From Anaerolineales bacterium (lineage in GTDB: Bacteria > Chloroflexota > Anaerolineae > Anaerolineales > Villigracilaceae): DNA of 34,772 nt. This document shows positions 10,750-17,493 of this stretch, in pieces. The notes under the pieces are model-generated. The model made no database searches. It was not told where the DNA came from and worked only from the letters and a program-made list of their open reading frames with translations. A program made the position numbers and the translations under genes. Each line of letters begins with the position of its first letter. Position 1 is the first letter of the stretch. The DNA is taken from the NCBI GenBank assembly GCA_014860805.1, contig JACZJB010000042.1:1-34772 (forward strand). The letters are read 5' to 3'.

Positions 10750-11910
10750 TTAATCCAACCGTTGCAAGATATGACTCACGGCTGTGGATGCTGGCCCGCC
10801 GAGGGACTGGATCAATGCGGTTTTTGCGCCTGCGATTTGGTTCGCTTCAGCCTGACCTCGTAACTGGAGCGCAGCTTCGACAGCTTGATACACGCCCGCA
10901 GCCCCGCCGGGGAATCCGCGGGCTTTCATGCCGCCCATCGTGGCGCAGGGGAGCTTCCCCTTAAGTCCGATGGAACCATCCGCGGCGAATTTCCAACCCT
11001 TTCCTTTAATCGCAAATCCAATTGCTTCGAGCTGCAGTGCAGCATAGATGCTGAACACATCGTGATATTCAAAAAAATGGATCTGATCCAGTATCACACC
11101 TGCCTGCTTCATGGCTTTACCTGCGGAGATCTGCGCGGTTTCAAAGAAAAGCATATCTTTTCTATCGTGCATTGCCAGTGTATCGGACGATGCCGCCGAG
11201 CCGGCGATCTTCACGAGTGGATTCTTAAAACTGGACGGGAGCAGCTCACGGCGAGTCAGAACGAGCGCGGCTGCGCCATCCGCATTGGGAGCCATGTCGA
11301 ACATGTTGATTGGGTCGCTGACCATTTCCGCTTTGGCGTAGGTCTCGGCTTTGATGGCTTTGCGGAACATGGCGTATTTATTTGCAACAGCATTTGCGTG
11401 AGCGGTCAATGCAAAATTGGCAAAGCCATCTGCAGGGACGTTGTTTTCGTGCATGTAACGTTTCATCAGCAGCGCGGCTTGCGCGGTTGCCGTCATCCCG
11501 TGCACAGCTTCAAAATCCGAATCGGTGGCAGTGGCGACGGCTTCATCTACTTCCGCGCCGACCTTGTCTGTAAATTTTTCCACGCCGACCACGAGCGCCA
11601 CATCCACCATGCCGCTGGCAACAGCGAGATAGCCCTGACGCAGCGCCGCTCCGCCTGATGCGCCCGCCGCTTCAACGGTTACTGCTTCGATCCCTGTGAG
11701 ACCGGCATAATCCGCAAGCAATGCACCAAGGTGCGCCTGCCTTGAAAGATTCGGTGCGAGCATGTTGCCCACGAATAAGGCTTGCGGTTTCAACCCGCCC
11801 GCATCTTGAATTGCATCGTGGATGGCGGCGTAGGCAAGGTCGCGCAGACCGATATCCCAATGCTCGCCGACTTCTGTTTGTCCTATTCCTGTAATAACGA
11901 CTTCAGCCAT
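10750..11910 (-). CDS. Thiolase-like protein (SCP-2/archaeal type) lacking catalytic Cys and His
   Basis: 386 residues, full length for the archaeal acetyl-CoA acetyltransferase/SCP-2 thiolase type that sits beside HMG-CoA synthase. Family landmarks are clear: VVITGIGQTEVGEHW, LFVGNMLAPNLSRQAHLGAL, VASGMVDVALVVGVEKFTD, FFEYHDVFSIYAALQLEAIGF and LQLRGQAE. The active site is not normal. The nucleophile motif (usual A-A-C-A-S-G) reads VEAAGASGGAAL, with Gly for Cys (codon GGC), and the usual G-H-P motif reads KARGFPGGAAG, with Phe for His (codon TTC). The last motif, usually HN-x-GG, reads QSLGG. Known chemistry (acyl transfer through Cys) should therefore be lost. A structural or CoA-binding role with HMG-CoA synthase and DUF35 is an inference. 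Cotranscription with HMGS is likely, through a repeat-bearing spacer. Confidence 0.8.
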   Translation of the reverse strand: MAEVVITGIGQTEVGEHWDIGLRDLAYAAIHDAIQDAGGLKPQALFVGNMLAPNLSRQAHLGALLADYAGLTGIEAVTVEAAGASGGAALRQGYLAVASGMVDVALVVGVEKFTDKVGAEVDEAVATATDSDFEAVHGMTATAQAALLMKRYMHENNVPADGFANFALTAHANAVANKYAMFRKAIKAETYAKAEMVSDPINMFDMAPNADGAAALVLTRRELLPSSFKNPLVKIAGSAASSDTLAMHDRKDMLFFETAQISAGKAMKQAGVILDQIHFFEYHDVFSIYAALQLEAIGFAIKGKGWKFAADGSIGLKGKLPCATMGGMKARGFPGGAAGVYQAVEAALQLRGQAEANQIAGAKTALIQSLGGPASTAVSHILQRLD

Positions 11911-12044: not shown

Positions 12045-13124
12045 TCATTTCATTTGGAGTTTGCCGCGGAAGCGGACGTATGTAGCATAGTCAATTTCTG
12101 TTCTTCGCGCAATGTATTCCTGTGTCTTGGTGGCAAGACCTTGTCTGGCGGTGACTTTGTCAGTGACAGTGATGTCGAAGGCGTCTGACCCTGCTCCAGA
12201 GCCGAAAGAGACGACGAGAATCCTGTCGCCGGGTTGGGCGATGTCGAGAGTCGCAGTCAGGCCGATCATCGCCGCGCCTGCGTAGGTGTTCCCTATGGTG
12301 CCGACGAGCAAACCCGGTTCGATCTGCTCCGCCGTGAAGCCAAGCTGTCCCGCCACACGCTGCGGGAATTTTACGTTCGGCTGATGGAAGACAGCCCACT
12401 TGTAATCCTTTGCGGTGCTGCCCATGGCTTCCATGAGATGGGTGGCGGCTTCGGTGATGTGCTTGAAGTAGGCGGGTTCACCCGTGAAGCGCATGCCGTG
12501 CTCAGGATACTTTTGATATTCACGCCGCCAGAAATCGGGCGTGTCGGTGACGTAGGAATACGAGGCGTTGATGGTCGCGAGTGACTCTTCGGCGGGGCCG
12601 AGAATGTACGCGCCGCCGCCCGCGCCCGCGGTGTATTCGAGCGCGTCGCCGGGCTTGCCTTGCGCGGTGTCCATGCCAATGGCCATGGCATAGTGACCCA
12701 TGCCCGAGCCGACCAGACCCATCGCGGCGACCATCGCTTCGGTGCCCGCTTTGCAGGCGAATTCCCAATCCGCGGCTTGGGTGTTGGGGACAGCGCCAAT
12801 CGCTTCGGCGACCAAGGTGGAAGTTGGTTTGACCGCATAGGGATGCGATTCAGACCCGACCCAAACCGCCCGCAGTTCTGTCGGGTCAATTTGTGCGCGG
12901 AGCATGGCGTTGCGTGCGGCTTCAATAGACATGGTGATCACGTCTTCGTCGAGACCAGGCACGGCTTTCTCTTTGATGGGAAGTCCGCCCGTTTTGCCTG
13001 TCCATACGCGCGCGACTTCCTTCGCAGGCAGGCGATACCGCGGCACGTACGCGCCATAGCCGACAATGCCAACAGGCTTGATGGGTTTGAGGAGGGTGGG
13101 GGAGTGTGGTTGAGGAGTTGTCAT
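12045..13124 (-). CDS. Hydroxymethylglutaryl-CoA synthase, archaeal type
   Basis: 359 residues, close to the archaeal HMGS family and shorter than eukaryotic HMGS. The enzyme condenses acetyl-CoA with acetoacetyl-CoA to HMG-CoA in the mevalonate route to isoprenoids. Catalytic residues are present: Glu92 in VGSESHP, Cys124 in [12 protein letters not shown], His247 in [11 protein letters not shown], plus [12 protein letters not shown] and [11 protein letters not shown]. The N-terminus is about 15 residues longer than usual before [21 protein letters not shown] 13124 is kept because AGGAAAA lies upstream. In archaea HMGS forms a complex with a thiolase and a DUF35 protein. The thiolase-like partner gene is directly downstream here, and a DUF35 gene lies at 24399. 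A TTGACA promoter candidate lies upstream. Confidence 0.92.
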
Positions 13125-13293: not shown

Positions 13294-14172
13294 TTAGAAC
13301 GCGGTTGCGATGATGCCGATGATTGCCGTGGCGATGCCTAGCCCTTGAAATCTTGAGATATTGTCTTTCAAGAAAATCACAGCCAGCGCAATGGTCACAA
13401 TTGACAAAGCGGACGCGATGGGCGTGATCAAGATGGCATCGCCAATGGTTAATCCGTAATTCACGAGCGCCACAGCGCTGACTTCGATCATACCTATTAA
13501 TAGGATCACGAATTTTATTTTTGTAGAACCGTGAGTCAGTTCGATTTCCTGTTTTACAGCAAAGGAGAAGATCAATAGGAATATGGCAATCCCCAATTTT
13601 ACAAGCAGAGTCGTTAATAACCACCCGATCTCTTCAGAAATAATCTCACTGATATTCCAAAAGATTCCAAAGAAGAAAGCGCCCAGAATTGCCTCTTTGA
13701 CCCCCAATGAAAGTTGAAACCTTTGTTTTGTAAGATTGCCCCAGTCCATCGAAGCGAGTGTCGCGCCAGAAAGAATCATGACTACGCCAATGGTTTGTAT
13801 TGTAGTAAGCCGTTGCCCCATAAAGACGAAGGCGAACAGCATGGTAAATACAGCCCATAGATTCATGGTTGCGGCAATGATCGATACATTGCCTTTCTCA
13901 AAACCTTTGAAGAAAAACAAATAACCAGCAGAATAAACGATGGCTGCAACAGGGGATAAAATGATTGCAAGGCTGGGAATGTGGAATTCTGTTTTGAAGG
14001 CAAAAGCAATTAGAAGGATGGAACCCAAACCTGCTAACTGTGACCAAAATAAAGACTTGAAAGACCCGATCTGTTTTGAGAAAACCCCGCCTAGAAAATC
14101 ATATATTCCCCATCCAAGCATACCGCCTATTCCCAATAAGATACTTAATATAGTTGTATTCATTAATGTCAT
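13294..14172 (-). CDS. EamA/DMT-family transporter
   Basis: 292 residues with ten hydrophobic segments in two homologous halves of five, the layout of EamA drug/metabolite transporters. The first half opens with LGIGGMLGWGIYDFLGGVFSKQIG and contains AIVYSAGYLFFFKGFEKGNVSIIA. The second half contains LGAFFFGIFWNISEIISEEIG and ALVNYGLTIGDAILITPIASALSIVT, followed by FLKDNISRFQGLGIATAIIG. Substrates of this family range over amino acids, metabolites and nucleotide sugars and cannot be assigned. It starts 14 nt after the MerB-like gene and belongs to the same operon as the YgeY-like hydrolase, so it may export or import the molecule those proteins handle. ATG 14172 (with AAGG close by) or ATG 14163 could be the start. 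Confidence 0.82.
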   Translation of the reverse strand: MTLMNTTILSILLGIGGMLGWGIYDFLGGVFSKQIGSFKSLFWSQLAGLGSILLIAFAFKTEFHIPSLAIILSPVAAIVYSAGYLFFFKGFEKGNVSIIAATMNLWAVFTMLFAFVFMGQRLTTIQTIGVVMILSGATLASMDWGNLTKQRFQLSLGVKEAILGAFFFGIFWNISEIISEEIGWLLTTLLVKLGIAIFLLIFSFAVKQEIELTHGSTKIKFVILLIGMIEVSAVALVNYGLTIGDAILITPIASALSIVTIALAVIFLKDNISRFQGLGIATAIIGIIATAF

Positions 14173-14186
14173 GAACCTTATTCACA

Positions 14187-14855
14187 TCACAAATACCAAA
14201 ACTTGGACTTCAACCCAGCCTGCCTGAAAACCTCTGCAACCTGTTCAGTGCTGCGCCCATGAAAATCCACGGACAAGCGGTTGTGATACCAAAGTTTGGA
14301 CAATTCCCAAACTTGATCGATGGTCAGGATTTCTCCGCGTTCGAGATTGTTTCGTTTGCACCACTTATCAATCCATTCTTCCGACTGGAAGAGAAGCATG
14401 TTTGCTCAGGTGAAGACGAGGTCATCGTACCAGCGTGAGAAAGGAAGTGGAAAGTGGACAAGTAATTCACTGTTTGTAACTTTGCCATCCTTTACTTCCA
14501 ATTGAATCGATTCATTGCTTTCAGTGCAAACTGCATCAATGACAGCGTCGCAGTGCAGCGCGGCGGGGATGCCAAGCATGTCCCAGGCGCAGTTGGCGAA
14601 GTAGGTCTTACCATTCGCGTGGACTTTGAAGTCCGTGGGAATCCCTGAGAAGGGGTTTGCCATGCGCATGGTCAATGTCTCTGGCTCGAGGAAGAAGGAA
14701 TGTCGGTTATGTAATTCCTTGTAAAGTTCGCCAGCTTCCTCTGCGCTGATGTTAAAGTGCGAGGCAGTTTCTTCTACACTCGGCGGGTGAGTGGTGTCCG
14801 CGAAGTGGGCATAAACGAAATGACGAACTTGCCAGAGAATAGTATCGTCTTTCAT
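14187..14855 (-). CDS. MerB (organomercurial lyase)-like protein with in-frame UGA, probable selenoprotein
   Basis: Read through one TGA (14408-14406) this is a 222-residue protein, matching MerB-family length (about 212). The N-terminal winged-helix-like part (residues 1-60) precedes the lyase domain: MANPFSGIPTDFKV, TYFANCAWDMLGIPAAL, FSRWYDDLVFT, then UGA, then ANMLLFQSEEWIDKWC and the C-terminal FWYL. MerB uses Cys96, Asp99 and Cys159. Here Cys89 and Asp92 (CAWD) correspond to the first two, and the UGA is codon 150, aligning without a gap to Cys159 in MerB's FCCHVHFFAS. A SECIS-like hairpin follows at 19 nt. Without recoding, a 149-residue fragment lacking the third catalytic residue would result, followed two codons later by an in-frame ATG. 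Neighbours are a YgeY-like hydrolase 11 nt upstream and a DMT transporter 14 nt downstream. A recent nonsense mutation is the alternative. Confidence 0.72.
14377..14392 (-). promoter_or_regulatory. Candidate bacterial SECIS element (upper stem-loop)
   Basis: In the mRNA, UCUUCC (from 14392), loop AGUC, then GGAAGA (to 14377) form a perfect 6-bp stem. Nineteen nt separate the UGA codon from the loop, within the 16-37 nt range used for bacterial SECIS. The loop differs from the E. coli fdhF loop GGUC at one base and keeps the G-U that contacts SelB. A bulged base followed by one more pair can extend the stem. Confidence 0.6.
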
Positions 14856-14866
14856 CTTTCCACTTT

Positions 14867-16018
14867 CTATTTACCCAACACCGTTTCAATAATCCCAACA
14901 TAGCCGCGCGCGGTCTTTTCCAATTCAAGCAGGCTGAGTTGTTCATCCACCACGTGCGCGTCCCATTCTGCGCCGGGGCCGAATCCGATGGTTGGCACGC
15001 CTGCTACGCCCATGCTATAAGCGGCGTTCGTGCAAAAGCGATAGGCGCCCAGCTTCGGGTCCAGGCCAGAGGCGCGGAGTCCCTTCAATGCCAGTTGGAC
15101 GAATTCATTCTCTTCATCCAATTCCCAGGCAGGGAAGAATTTTTCCGCGTGCAGGGTTTTGCCGGTATAGGTGAGGTGGTCACTGCTGGCGATCTTCGCC
15201 GTGAAATTTACATCTTTCAATGCAGGCAGAGACGTGATCTCGTCCAACACGCCTTGCGGGGTTTCGCCCGGCAGCAGGCGGCGGTCATAGGTCACTTTGC
15301 AGCGGGAGGGAGTAACCGAATAAGCGGGATATGGCTCCGAGATGATGTCGGTCAGCGCGAGGATGGCGGGACCCATCAACGGGTGTTCTCCCAGTTTCAA
15401 TTTTTCAATTTCAGCGATGACCTTTGTCATCAAATGCACGGCGTTCACGCCCAATTGTGGAGAAGAGGAATGCGCGGGTTTGCCGATGGTTTCAAGGTGA
15501 ATCTCCGCACGCCCGCGCCCGCCGCGTGCAAGGTTGAGCTGGGTTGCTTCGCCGATGACAACAAAATCTGGTTTGACCTCGTCCATCACGGCTTTGAGCG
15601 CGCCGCCTTCGTACACTTCTTCCAGCACCGAAGCGGAGACGATGACCGTGCCATGCAGTTTACTTTTGTCCACACTTGCGGCGGCGTGGATCATTGCGGC
15701 GAGCGAGCCTTTCATGTCCATCACGCCGCGCCCGTACATGTGTGTGTCAGTCACTTCTGCGCCGAAAGGGGCGCGAGACCAGACTGATCCGGGAGCGATT
15801 CCCACCGTATCCGTGTGCGCATCAAAAAGCAGAGTCTTACCCGGATGCGCCCCTCGCATCGTTCCCACCACGGAGCCGTATCTGTCAACCCAAACCTGAT
15901 CAAAGCTGAGAGCATTCATCTCGTCCATGACGAGCTTGCTTACAGCGCCTTCTTCGCCAGACAAACTTTGCTGGCGGACGATCTTCTGCGTGAATTCGAT
16001 CAGGGCTTCAATATCCAT
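14867..16018 (-). CDS. M20-family hydrolase, YgeY-like (selenium metabolism-linked type)
   Basis: 383 residues from ATG 16018, which has TTGGAG 6 nt upstream; an in-frame extension to 16066 is unsupported. It is a zinc-dependent amidohydrolase of the ArgE/DapE/M20 fold with metal ligands visible: His68 in FDAHTDTVG, Asp101 in GVMDMKG, Glu133/134 in VLEEVYEGGA, Glu157 in IGEATQ, and a late His in WDAHVVDEQ. The signatures TPSRCKVTYDRRLLPGETPQGVLDEI, LPAL, FFPAWELDEENEFVQLALKG and GVPTIGFGPG track E. coli YgeY closely. That family is annotated as selenium metabolism-linked because its occurrence correlates with selD; its substrate is unknown. It is the first gene of a tight three-gene operon with the UGA-containing MerB-like gene and a transporter. 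Confidence 0.82.
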   Translation of the reverse strand: MDIEALIEFTQKIVRQQSLSGEEGAVSKLVMDEMNALSFDQVWVDRYGSVVGTMRGAHPGKTLLFDAHTDTVGIAPGSVWSRAPFGAEVTDTHMYGRGVMDMKGSLAAMIHAAASVDKSKLHGTVIVSASVLEEVYEGGALKAVMDEVKPDFVVIGEATQLNLARGGRGRAEIHLETIGKPAHSSSPQLGVNAVHLMTKVIAEIEKLKLGEHPLMGPAILALTDIISEPYPAYSVTPSRCKVTYDRRLLPGETPQGVLDEITSLPALKDVNFTAKIASSDHLTYTGKTLHAEKFFPAWELDEENEFVQLALKGLRASGLDPKLGAYRFCTNAAYSMGVAGVPTIGFGPGAEWDAHVVDEQLSLLELEKTARGYVGIIETVLGK

Positions 16019-16031
16019 GTGTCTCCAATTT

Positions 16032-16134
16032 ATGACATCCTGAGGGTAGCGAAGGATCACTACCATTACTTGAAGTCATGATAATCTAAAGTAGAGACCC
16101 TTCGGTCACGAAGAACGCTCCCTCAAGGTGACAT
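16032..16134. repeat. Pair of inverted dispersed-repeat copies
   Basis: The left arm (about 16032-16059) contains ATGACATCCTGAGGG and GCGAAGGATC. The right arm (about 16094-16134) reads GAGACCCTTCGGTC then GCTCCCTCAAGGTGACAT. The right arm is the reverse-complement form of the same TGACA-CCTGAGGG-GCGAAGG element. It fills the spacer between the HMG-CoA reductase and YgeY-like genes. Confidence 0.55.
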
Positions 16135-16145
16135 GATTAGGCATT

Positions 16146-17432
16146 TTATTTTCCGCTCAGCGATTTCAAAATCTCTTCCGCGCGGTCAATTCTTACAACC
16201 TTCTCAGCCACCATTTGTGCGGCGACTTTTTCGATCAACTCTCCGCTGGCGCCTGTGGCGATGGCGACTTGCCTTGCGTGTAGCGACATGTGTCCGCGCT
16301 GGATGCCTTCGGTGGCGAGGGCACGCAGGGCCGCCATGTTTTGAGCGAGTCCGACGGAGACGATGATCTGCGCGAGTTCGTTGGCAGTTTTGACGCCCAT
16401 TAATTTGACAGCGGCTTGCGCAGCCGGGTGGACTTTGGTCGCGCCTCCAACAATGCCAACAGCCATTGGCATTTCTAATGTGCCGACCAGATTACCGTCT
16501 TTATCTTTGCCCCAGGTGGAGAGGGAGGTGTATTTGCCAGAGCGGGCAGCGTAGGCATGGGCTCCTGCTTCGATAGCGCGCCAATCATTGCCTGTGGCGA
16601 GGACAACCGCATCCACGCCGTTCATGATGCCTTTATTGTGGGTGGCGGCGCGGTACGGGTCAGAGGCGGCGAAGGCATACGCGGCGATAATCCCATCACG
16701 GACCGCTTCGCCGTTGAATTCGTCGGCGGCCATGGTCAATTCATTAACAGGGATGGTCGCACGTACACGCGCAATTCTGCGGTCTGCCAAATTGGAGAGA
16801 ATTTTCAGGTGGATTTTCCCGCCCGTGATGGTTTCGATCTGCGGAGCAAGCTTTTCGCAAGCCGTGTTGACTGCGTTCGCGCCCATCGCATCTCGCACAT
16901 CATAGATGAGATGAATGACGATGAATGCGCCGATGGGGGAGTCGTTGATCACGCGGACTTCGAGGTCGCGCGCGCCGCCGCCGAATTTCTTGAGAATCGG
17001 GTCTATCTCATCGGCAATGGCGAGCAGTTCGGCTTTGTGCTCATAGACTTTCAGCTTGGCTTCTTCCACATTCACCACGTTGATGAGCTGCATTTGGCCG
17101 ATCATCAACGGGTCGGTGGTAGTGGCGTGGAATCCGCCGCCTGCGCGGACAAGTTTTGCCATGAACGAAGCGCCTGCCACCACAGACGGCTCCTCCACGA
17201 CGAAGGGCACGAGCACATCGCGCCCATTCACCATGAAGTTGAGTCCAATGCCGAGGGGCAGGGAATGCATGCCGACCACGTTTTCGATCATGTGGTCAGC
17301 TGATTCAGCAGAGAGTCCGCCTGTGGTCCACGGGGCAAGATCGGATGGGGAGAGATGCGCTGCGTCCGCAAGTTTGGCGCGGCGTTCTTCGATGGTCAGG
17401 TTGTAAAATCCAGAGATGCGGGAAGTTGTCAT
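16146..17432 (-). CDS. Hydroxymethylglutaryl-CoA reductase, class II
   Basis: 428 residues from ATG 17432, the same length as the Pseudomonas mevalonii enzyme, which it resembles along its whole length; a TTG at 17468 is an unlikely start. It converts HMG-CoA to mevalonate with NAD(P)H. Catalytic residues are present: Glu81 in VVEEPSVVAGAS, Lys267 in ATHNKGIMNG, Asp283 in ATGNDWRAIEAG and His381 in RGHMSLHARQ. DAMGANAVNT marks the cofactor domain, and IENVVGMHSLPLGIGLNF is the class II start. In P. mevalonii this enzyme is degradative. Here the nearby HMGS and DUF35 genes point to biosynthetic use for isoprenoids. No mevalonate kinase or decarboxylase genes are in the window. Confidence 0.95.
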   Translation of the reverse strand: MTTSRISGFYNLTIEERRAKLADAAHLSPSDLAPWTTGGLSAESADHMIENVVGMHSLPLGIGLNFMVNGRDVLVPFVVEEPSVVAGASFMAKLVRAGGGFHATTTDPLMIGQMQLINVVNVEEAKLKVYEHKAELLAIADEIDPILKKFGGGARDLEVRVINDSPIGAFIVIHLIYDVRDAMGANAVNTACEKLAPQIETITGGKIHLKILSNLADRRIARVRATIPVNELTMAADEFNGEAVRDGIIAAYAFAASDPYRAATHNKGIMNGVDAVVLATGNDWRAIEAGAHAYAARSGKYTSLSTWGKDKDGNLVGTLEMPMAVGIVGGATKVHPAAQAAVKLMGVKTANELAQIIVSVGLAQNMAALRALATEGIQRGHMSLHARQVAIATGASGELIEKVAAQMVAEKVVRIDRAEEILKSLSGK

Positions 17433-17493
17433 AGTAGTTGTTCCAAGTATAGTTTGGCTTTCTTTCAAATTCTATCAAAAAGCGTTTATTCAT

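Follow-up and report, generated by a model that had tools for sequence, protein, structure and literature searches.

A predicted MerB-family selenoprotein with selenocysteine at the Cys159 position, encoded in a mevalonate gene cluster of an Anaerolineales bacterium

Is a gene of the MerB family in an Anaerolineales genome broken by a stop codon, or is that codon read as selenocysteine (Sec)? The question is raised by a stretch of 34,772 nucleotides (contig JACZJB010000042.1 of assembly GCA_014860805.1, hereafter the window). On its minus strand, the reading frame from 14855 to 14187 is interrupted by a TGA at 14408-14406 (codon 150) and otherwise stays open up to its terminal TGA. The original prediction, made from the letters alone, described one MerB-like frame interrupted only by this TGA, which was placed at the catalytic Cys159 of MerB, with C89 and D92 in the places of Cys96 and Asp99. 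Both descriptions were borne out. The Pfam profile PF03243 matched straight across the TGA, from residue 69 to residue 190, with a score of 98.2 bits (cut-off 27) and an E-value of 4.6e-28. The sole PDB match by phmmer was MerB2 (5c17), in whose alignment codon 150 stood opposite a MerB2 Cys and C89 and D92 fell at their proposed counterparts. We take the codon-150 position to be that of MerB Cys159, and C89 and D92 to be Cys96 and Asp99, in the MerB numbering; where canonical MerB has Cys159, the aligned codon of the window protein is thus UGA. The residue numbers Cys96, Asp99 and Cys159 are also given in a passage of PMC8261052. When TGA was read as Cys in a 42-row family alignment, C89 and the codon-150 residue were invariant. 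An alignment of 42 family rows was also the input for AlphaFold2, which returned a model of the window protein with a pLDDT of 96.8 and a pTM of 0.92. All 11 PDB matches to the predicted fold with E <= 0.001 were MerB or MerB2, and the window protein is predicted to have the MerB fold. No Rfam family at gathering score and no tRNA was found in the window. The coordinates are collected in Table 1.

Table 1. Positions of the features in the window and of the related loci with two in-frame TGA codons
Feature	Position	Strand	Remarks
MerB-family selenoprotein gene (predicted)	14187..14855	-	ATG start and TGA stop (14189-14187); 222 residues with Sec at codon 150
In-frame UGA, proposed Sec codon (codon 150)	14406..14408	-	at MerB Cys159 position
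Codons of C89-A-W-D92	14580..14591	-	counterparts of MerB Cys96 and Asp99
SECIS-like hairpin	14377..14392	-	6-bp stem UCUUCC/GGAAGA, AGUC loop
M20-family hydrolase, YgeY family	14867..16066	-	NF009555 over cut-off, TIGR03526 under cut-off
HMG-CoA reductase	16146..17468	-	TIGR00532; upstream of MerB-like gene
EamA-type transporter	13294..14172	-	next gene downstream
HMG-CoA synthase	12045..13124	-	TIGR00748; surrounding mevalonate cluster
Thiolase	10750..11910	-	surrounding mevalonate cluster
Double-TGA locus L108	909-2525	-	
Double-TGA locus L109	1800-3461	+	
Double-TGA locus L110	517-2073	-	
Double-TGA locus L111	258-1856	-	
Double-TGA locus L115	633-1355		second group
Double-TGA locus L119	857-1588		second group
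Double-TGA locus L120	882-1565		second group

Relatives were drawn from a scan of genome contigs, which gave 29 loci, and from 301 genomes of the order, 38 of which held a match, the window's genome included. We left out matches shorter than 150 residues, namely L046, L063, L073 and an additional short fragment in L035, together with duplicates that did not differ near the codon. In the 43 distinct full-length sequences (the window's is L048), codon 150 was TGA in 41, TGT in one (L075) and TGC in one (L076), so that the exchange with Cys codons expected of a Sec codon was found exactly at this position. The sense codon there was Cys in the relatives examined. Identity of the TGA forms to the window protein ranged from 86% (L020) down to 32% (L077), and a Gemmatimonadaceae genome (L047) was among them. 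The short relatives L046 and L073 also carried TGA at codon 150; L063 stops short of it. L057, from the genus of the window's genome, is identical to L034 around the codon. Extra copies of the last 20-30 MerB-like residues were seen about 680-750 bases past the gene end at three places (L035 7413-7502, G087:C11:165377-165460 and G284:C47:4394-4456).

A search of plasmids matched 12 of 72,556 records, and the three inspected were two Cys forms and a frameshifted Rubrobacter copy. The latter (L175, about 1956-2422 of Rubrobacter radiotolerans plasmid 1) is a decayed copy annotated as a short merB, with TGA at the codon and a frameshift after it. In four Cys forms, L075, L076, L173 (Paraburkholderia plasmid) and L174 (Sphingomonas plasmid), the Asp99 position is also Cys, giving CxxC, unlike the Sec forms of the window's family, which retain Asp there.

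Several observations would suit a true stop codon in a decaying pseudogene, or a sequencing error. TGA also serves as the stop codon in 11 of the 41 TGA forms, the window's among them; some relatives in the order-wide genome search keep only C-terminal pieces; and the Rubrobacter plasmid copy has its TGA in a frameshifted gene. The gene is patchy as well, with the 38 matches among 301 genomes of the order and absence from 12 of the 24 same-genus genomes listed. Against decay or error stands the constancy of the TGA at one codon in 41 of 43 sequences, with the frame open for 72-89 further residues in every one of the 41. The median Ka/Ks of 27 close sequences was 0.09 over the 20 codons before the TGA and 0.14 over the 70 after it. 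Purifying selection, as judged from these ratios, acts on the codons 3' of the UGA, and the 3' part is conserved and selected rather than decayed, as a genuine Sec codon would have it. The hairpin behind the UGA, conserved with compensatory changes, and the two Cys-form genomes, both without SelA (see below), also speak against a pseudogene, which we regard as very improbable.

An equally improbable course would be termination at the UGA and a restart at the ATG three codons on, so that two polypeptides are made. That ATG is present in 32 of the 41 TGA forms, the window's included. Yet in 8 of the 41 the ten codons past the UGA contain neither ATG nor GTG nor TTG, the split would halve the active site, and the hairpin would be left without a role. 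We reject a pseudogene, a sequencing error and a restart on the constancy of the TGA, the low Ka/Ks past it and these gaps in start codons.

The sequence directly behind the UGA can form a hairpin. The original prediction placed a 6-bp stem with an AGUC loop 19 nt after the UGA; the six base pairs and the loop at 19 nt stand, but the stem begins at 13 nt. The proposed likeness to fdhF holds in loop and spacing, as the GGUC apical loop of E. coli K-12 fdhF begins 18 nt past its UGA, although the fdhF stem is of different sequence. Taken by itself, the window hairpin is weak evidence, with a folding-energy z of -1.33, 22 of 200 shuffles as good, and the stem kept in 6% of synonymous resamplings. 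The case for the hairpin is comparative. A wider MerB-family set was drawn from 400 genomes of the phylum, among which 59 matched, at 72 listed places. Of these places, 30 loci were already in the set and 20 more, mostly TGA-bearing, were added by hand, so the ratio of TGA to Cys in the hairpin sample is no survey; L107 and L125, which had no match in the profile search, were dropped from it. At a fixed distance from the UGA, six pairs were formed in 66 of 69 distinct TGA sequences and five pairs in the other three, and an RGUC loop was present in all 69 (GGUC in 47, AGUC in 22). Under synonymous resampling, stem and loop together were expected at a mean of 5.7% and at most 39% for any one sequence, and the test is conservative because codon usage was pooled from the same frames. 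Among 30 distinct Cys sequences, two had the six complementary positions, three had the RGUC loop and none had both. The Ser codon within the hairpin was TCG in 66 of the 69 TGA sequences and TCA in three.

Compensatory changes were found in the stem. In 43 representative sequences, 99.6% of the cells pair and two stem pairs were changed on both sides, and in 20 sequences of the window's family one pair was changed on both sides, in two sequences; relatedness among the sequences inflates these counts. Distant members exchange C-G for U-A, at one pair in L066, L069 and L112 and at another in L115, L119 and L120. A bacterial SECIS lies directly after the UGA and presents a loop of SelB type; the hairpin has both properties, and its binding by SelB is predicted. 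The SelD UGA hairpins of four related genomes differ among themselves and do not have the RGUC loop, so the loop is not one that every selenoprotein gene in the group shares.

If UGA is read as Sec, the machinery for its insertion should be encoded in the same genome. The window's genome (G000; 96.8% complete, 274 contigs) contains a tRNA-Sec (68.5 bits, cut-off 47), SelB (349 bits, cut-off 242) and SelA (540 bits, cut-off 268), so that selA, selB and selC, three of the four genes named for checking, are in place. SelD, the fourth, was not found in the assembly: the lone match, at 61 bits under a cut-off of 125, was HypE-like and lay beside a HypD-like gene. SelD was over the cut-off in 18 of 22 chosen genomes, including all 12 other genomes of the genus, where each SelD gene has one in-frame TGA. 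The remaining four were G010 and G037, both with the Cys form, G206 (fragments only) and the window's genome. We presume that selD is missing from the window's assembly. SelA passed its cut-off in 54 of 57 chosen genomes, the exceptions being both Cys-form genomes and G002, which has SelD but, for SelA, just a partial piece close to the end of a contig. SelD genes from the same lineages (L147-L150) contain a TGA themselves, and their hairpins are unlike the RGUC one.

The UGA might also be read through as Trp, Cys or another residue by a suppressor that works outside SelB. We hold this to be highly unlikely, given the presence of tRNA-Sec, SelA and SelB, the resemblance of the hairpin to that of fdhF, and Cys as the sense codon in those relatives examined. 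Sequence comparison indicates that Sec very probably takes the place of MerB Cys159 through decoding of the UGA, and that Cys96 and Asp99 are retained. SelB and Sec-tRNA would recognize the RGUC hairpin just behind codon 150, and Sec would be inserted where MerB has Cys159.

The genes around the MerB-like gene belong largely to the mevalonate pathway. The run in the window is HMG-CoA reductase, hydrolase, MerB-like gene, transporter, HMG-CoA synthase and thiolase. A gap of 11 nt separates the MerB-like gene from the M20 hydrolase before it, and the two probably share an operon. The mevalonate genes are grouped around the MerB-like gene between 10750 and 17468; further out lie dnaA and a gene for a histidine kinase. 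We compared the neighbours in 29 related loci, some of which end early at contig ends. In 24 of them HMG-CoA reductase precedes the MerB-like gene on its strand, at a distance within 100 nt in 12; the M20 hydrolase stands between the two in six, and a homologue of the transporter occurs in one. None of the nine neighbours searched for was found at the distant loci L043, L045 and L047. Judged by gene order, the link to the mevalonate cluster is conserved among near relatives.

The mercury context was also considered. Six of 35 genomes had a MerA over the curated cut-off and the window's genome did not, so that it lacks the classical setting of mercury resistance. HgcA was over its cut-off in none of the 35, and no mer gene was named among 26 other reading frames of the window that were picked and scanned. 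A reading of the locus as a classical mer operon was rejected on the lack of a MerA over the cut-off.

What, then, might the protein do? In MerB, the cysteines bind the metal cation and the Asp protonates. In the window's family Cys96 and Asp99 are kept and only Cys159 is changed; therefore the MerB catalytic set is present in a seleno form. By analogy with MerB, a soft metal or organometal cation would be bound first by the selenolate and so be captured between Sec150 and Cys89, and a proton from Asp92 would free the organic group. We find this capture and protonation reasonably likely. The natural substrate may be an organomercurial, another soft organometal or an electrophile; the mevalonate setting argues for a substrate other than, or besides, environmental organomercury.

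The main rival is a redox or metal-sequestering role: the protein would be a selenoprotein and no carbon-metal lyase. Cys89 and Sec150 would either pair in a redox-active selenylsulfide or bind metal, in the service of sequestration, sensing or redox repair, and the protein would be made together with HMG-CoA reductase. The position of the gene directly behind HMG-CoA reductase, at the short distance seen in 12 of the 29 loci, is in its favour, as are the lack of a MerA over the cut-off in the window's genome and the replacement of Asp99 by Glu in seven of eight double-TGA relatives of one clade (see below). However, the window's family has exchanged Cys159 alone and has held on to Cys96 and Asp99, and a redox pair would have no evident use for Asp99. 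We consider such a role possible but rather unlikely. With some confidence we prefer the reading of the whole as a MerB-family selenoprotein that works in the manner of a lyase. Of the selenoprotein MerB-like lyase originally proposed, the selenocysteine is well supported, and organomercury lyase activity is an inference only.

Eleven loci have two in-frame TGA codons in the MerB domain, at the Cys96 and Cys159 positions. Eight of them form one clade (L108-L111, L116-L118 and L121), in which Asp99 is Glu in seven. The other three (L115, L119 and L120) lie on a long branch in another part of the tree; they keep Asp99, and the hairpin after their second TGA is the UCUUCU/AGAAGA version. From reading frames and alignment, L108-L111 are fused to an AAA+ ATPase domain, and PF00004 was over its cut-off in the three scanned, L108-L110. 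The RGUC hairpin follows the second TGA at all 11 loci. L128, the sister of the first clade, has Cys at position 96 and TGA at 159; behind that Cys it keeps both arms of the first-TGA hairpin, and its loop is without the GU that is found in all eight TGA copies of the clade. With the arms kept in a Cys form as well, this is no clean test, and the case for a SECIS behind the first TGA in the double-TGA genes is at most suggestive. The genomes that carry L108-L111 (G198, G175, G117 and G217) each have a SelA above its cut-off. In a tree of 68 rows the label changes numbered three for single-Sec rows, four for Cys rows and two for double rows; the tree came from a short search and has several weak and long branches. 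In the review PMC13188914, MerB occurs twice, both times in the SaoL row with one Sec, and no double-Sec MerB was found among the literature matches listed. The double-TGA relatives are candidates for double-selenocysteine enzymes.

A wider picture may be drawn, plausible yet tentative, of a radiation in Chloroflexota of selenium-based MerB-like enzymes that operate apart from both mer and SAO. One form, with a single Sec, would be tied to the mevalonate cluster, and Sec would occupy both the Cys96 and Cys159 positions in two places of the tree, one lineage being fused to AAA+; carbon-metal bonds would be cleaved, or soft electrophiles trapped, by the Sec-Cys or Sec-Sec pair.

The affinity of selenium for mercury exceeds that of sulfur. 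A natural family with selenium at a metal-capturing position of MerB would make selenium-mercury chemistry testable in a protein. It also raises the question how the product is released from a Sec enzyme of this family. Imidazole-based selones that mimic organomercurial lyase react faster than their sulfur analogues, according to PMC11639659. Gene callers that stop at UGA are expected to split such genes in two, and merB surveys that require Cys159 are described in PMC8261052; Sec relatives of MerB may therefore be missed.

MerB-like selenoproteins are already known as a kind, and the window's is not the first, contrary to the original prediction, which knew of no such description. A 2020 review (PMC7435645) places 'Organic mercuric lyase MerB2' among predicted selenoproteins, a 2022 review (PMC9312934) has a pfam03243 selenoprotein in its list, and a 2026 review (PMC13188914) names the 'MerB-like organometallic lyase SaoL (alkylmercury lyase MerB-like protein)' of the SAO system, with the motif CU and one Sec, which it traces to Haft and Gwadz 2023. 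No mention of MerB, mercury or lyase was found in the main text of PMC5029168, PMC12013277 and PMC2398784. SaoL (NF040728) is, like the window protein, a MerB-family selenoprotein with one Sec. Unlike SaoL, the window protein reaches 48.4 bits against the SaoL cut-off of 140, and the residue before its Sec is Thr, not the Cys of the CU motif given in PMC13188914. The profile NF040728 has 159 positions, of which position 137 falls at window residue 129; it seems to end near codon 150, and the Sec of SaoL may be at the same place. None of 400 Chloroflexota genomes passed the SaoL cut-off, and membership in SaoL was rejected on the score of the window protein and on this result for the phylum. 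A scan of 20 window proteins against NCBIfam also named no Sao partner. Against the canonical MerB profiles the window protein also stayed under the cut-offs, with 33.1 of 200 bits for NF033555 and 36.7 of 193 bits for NF009710. It differs from MerB and MerB2 (PF03243; PDB 3f0o and 5c17) in having a predicted Sec for Cys159 and in coming from a genome without a MerA over the cut-off, and it shares with them the predicted fold, the equivalents of Cys96 and Asp99, and the position of the third active-site residue.
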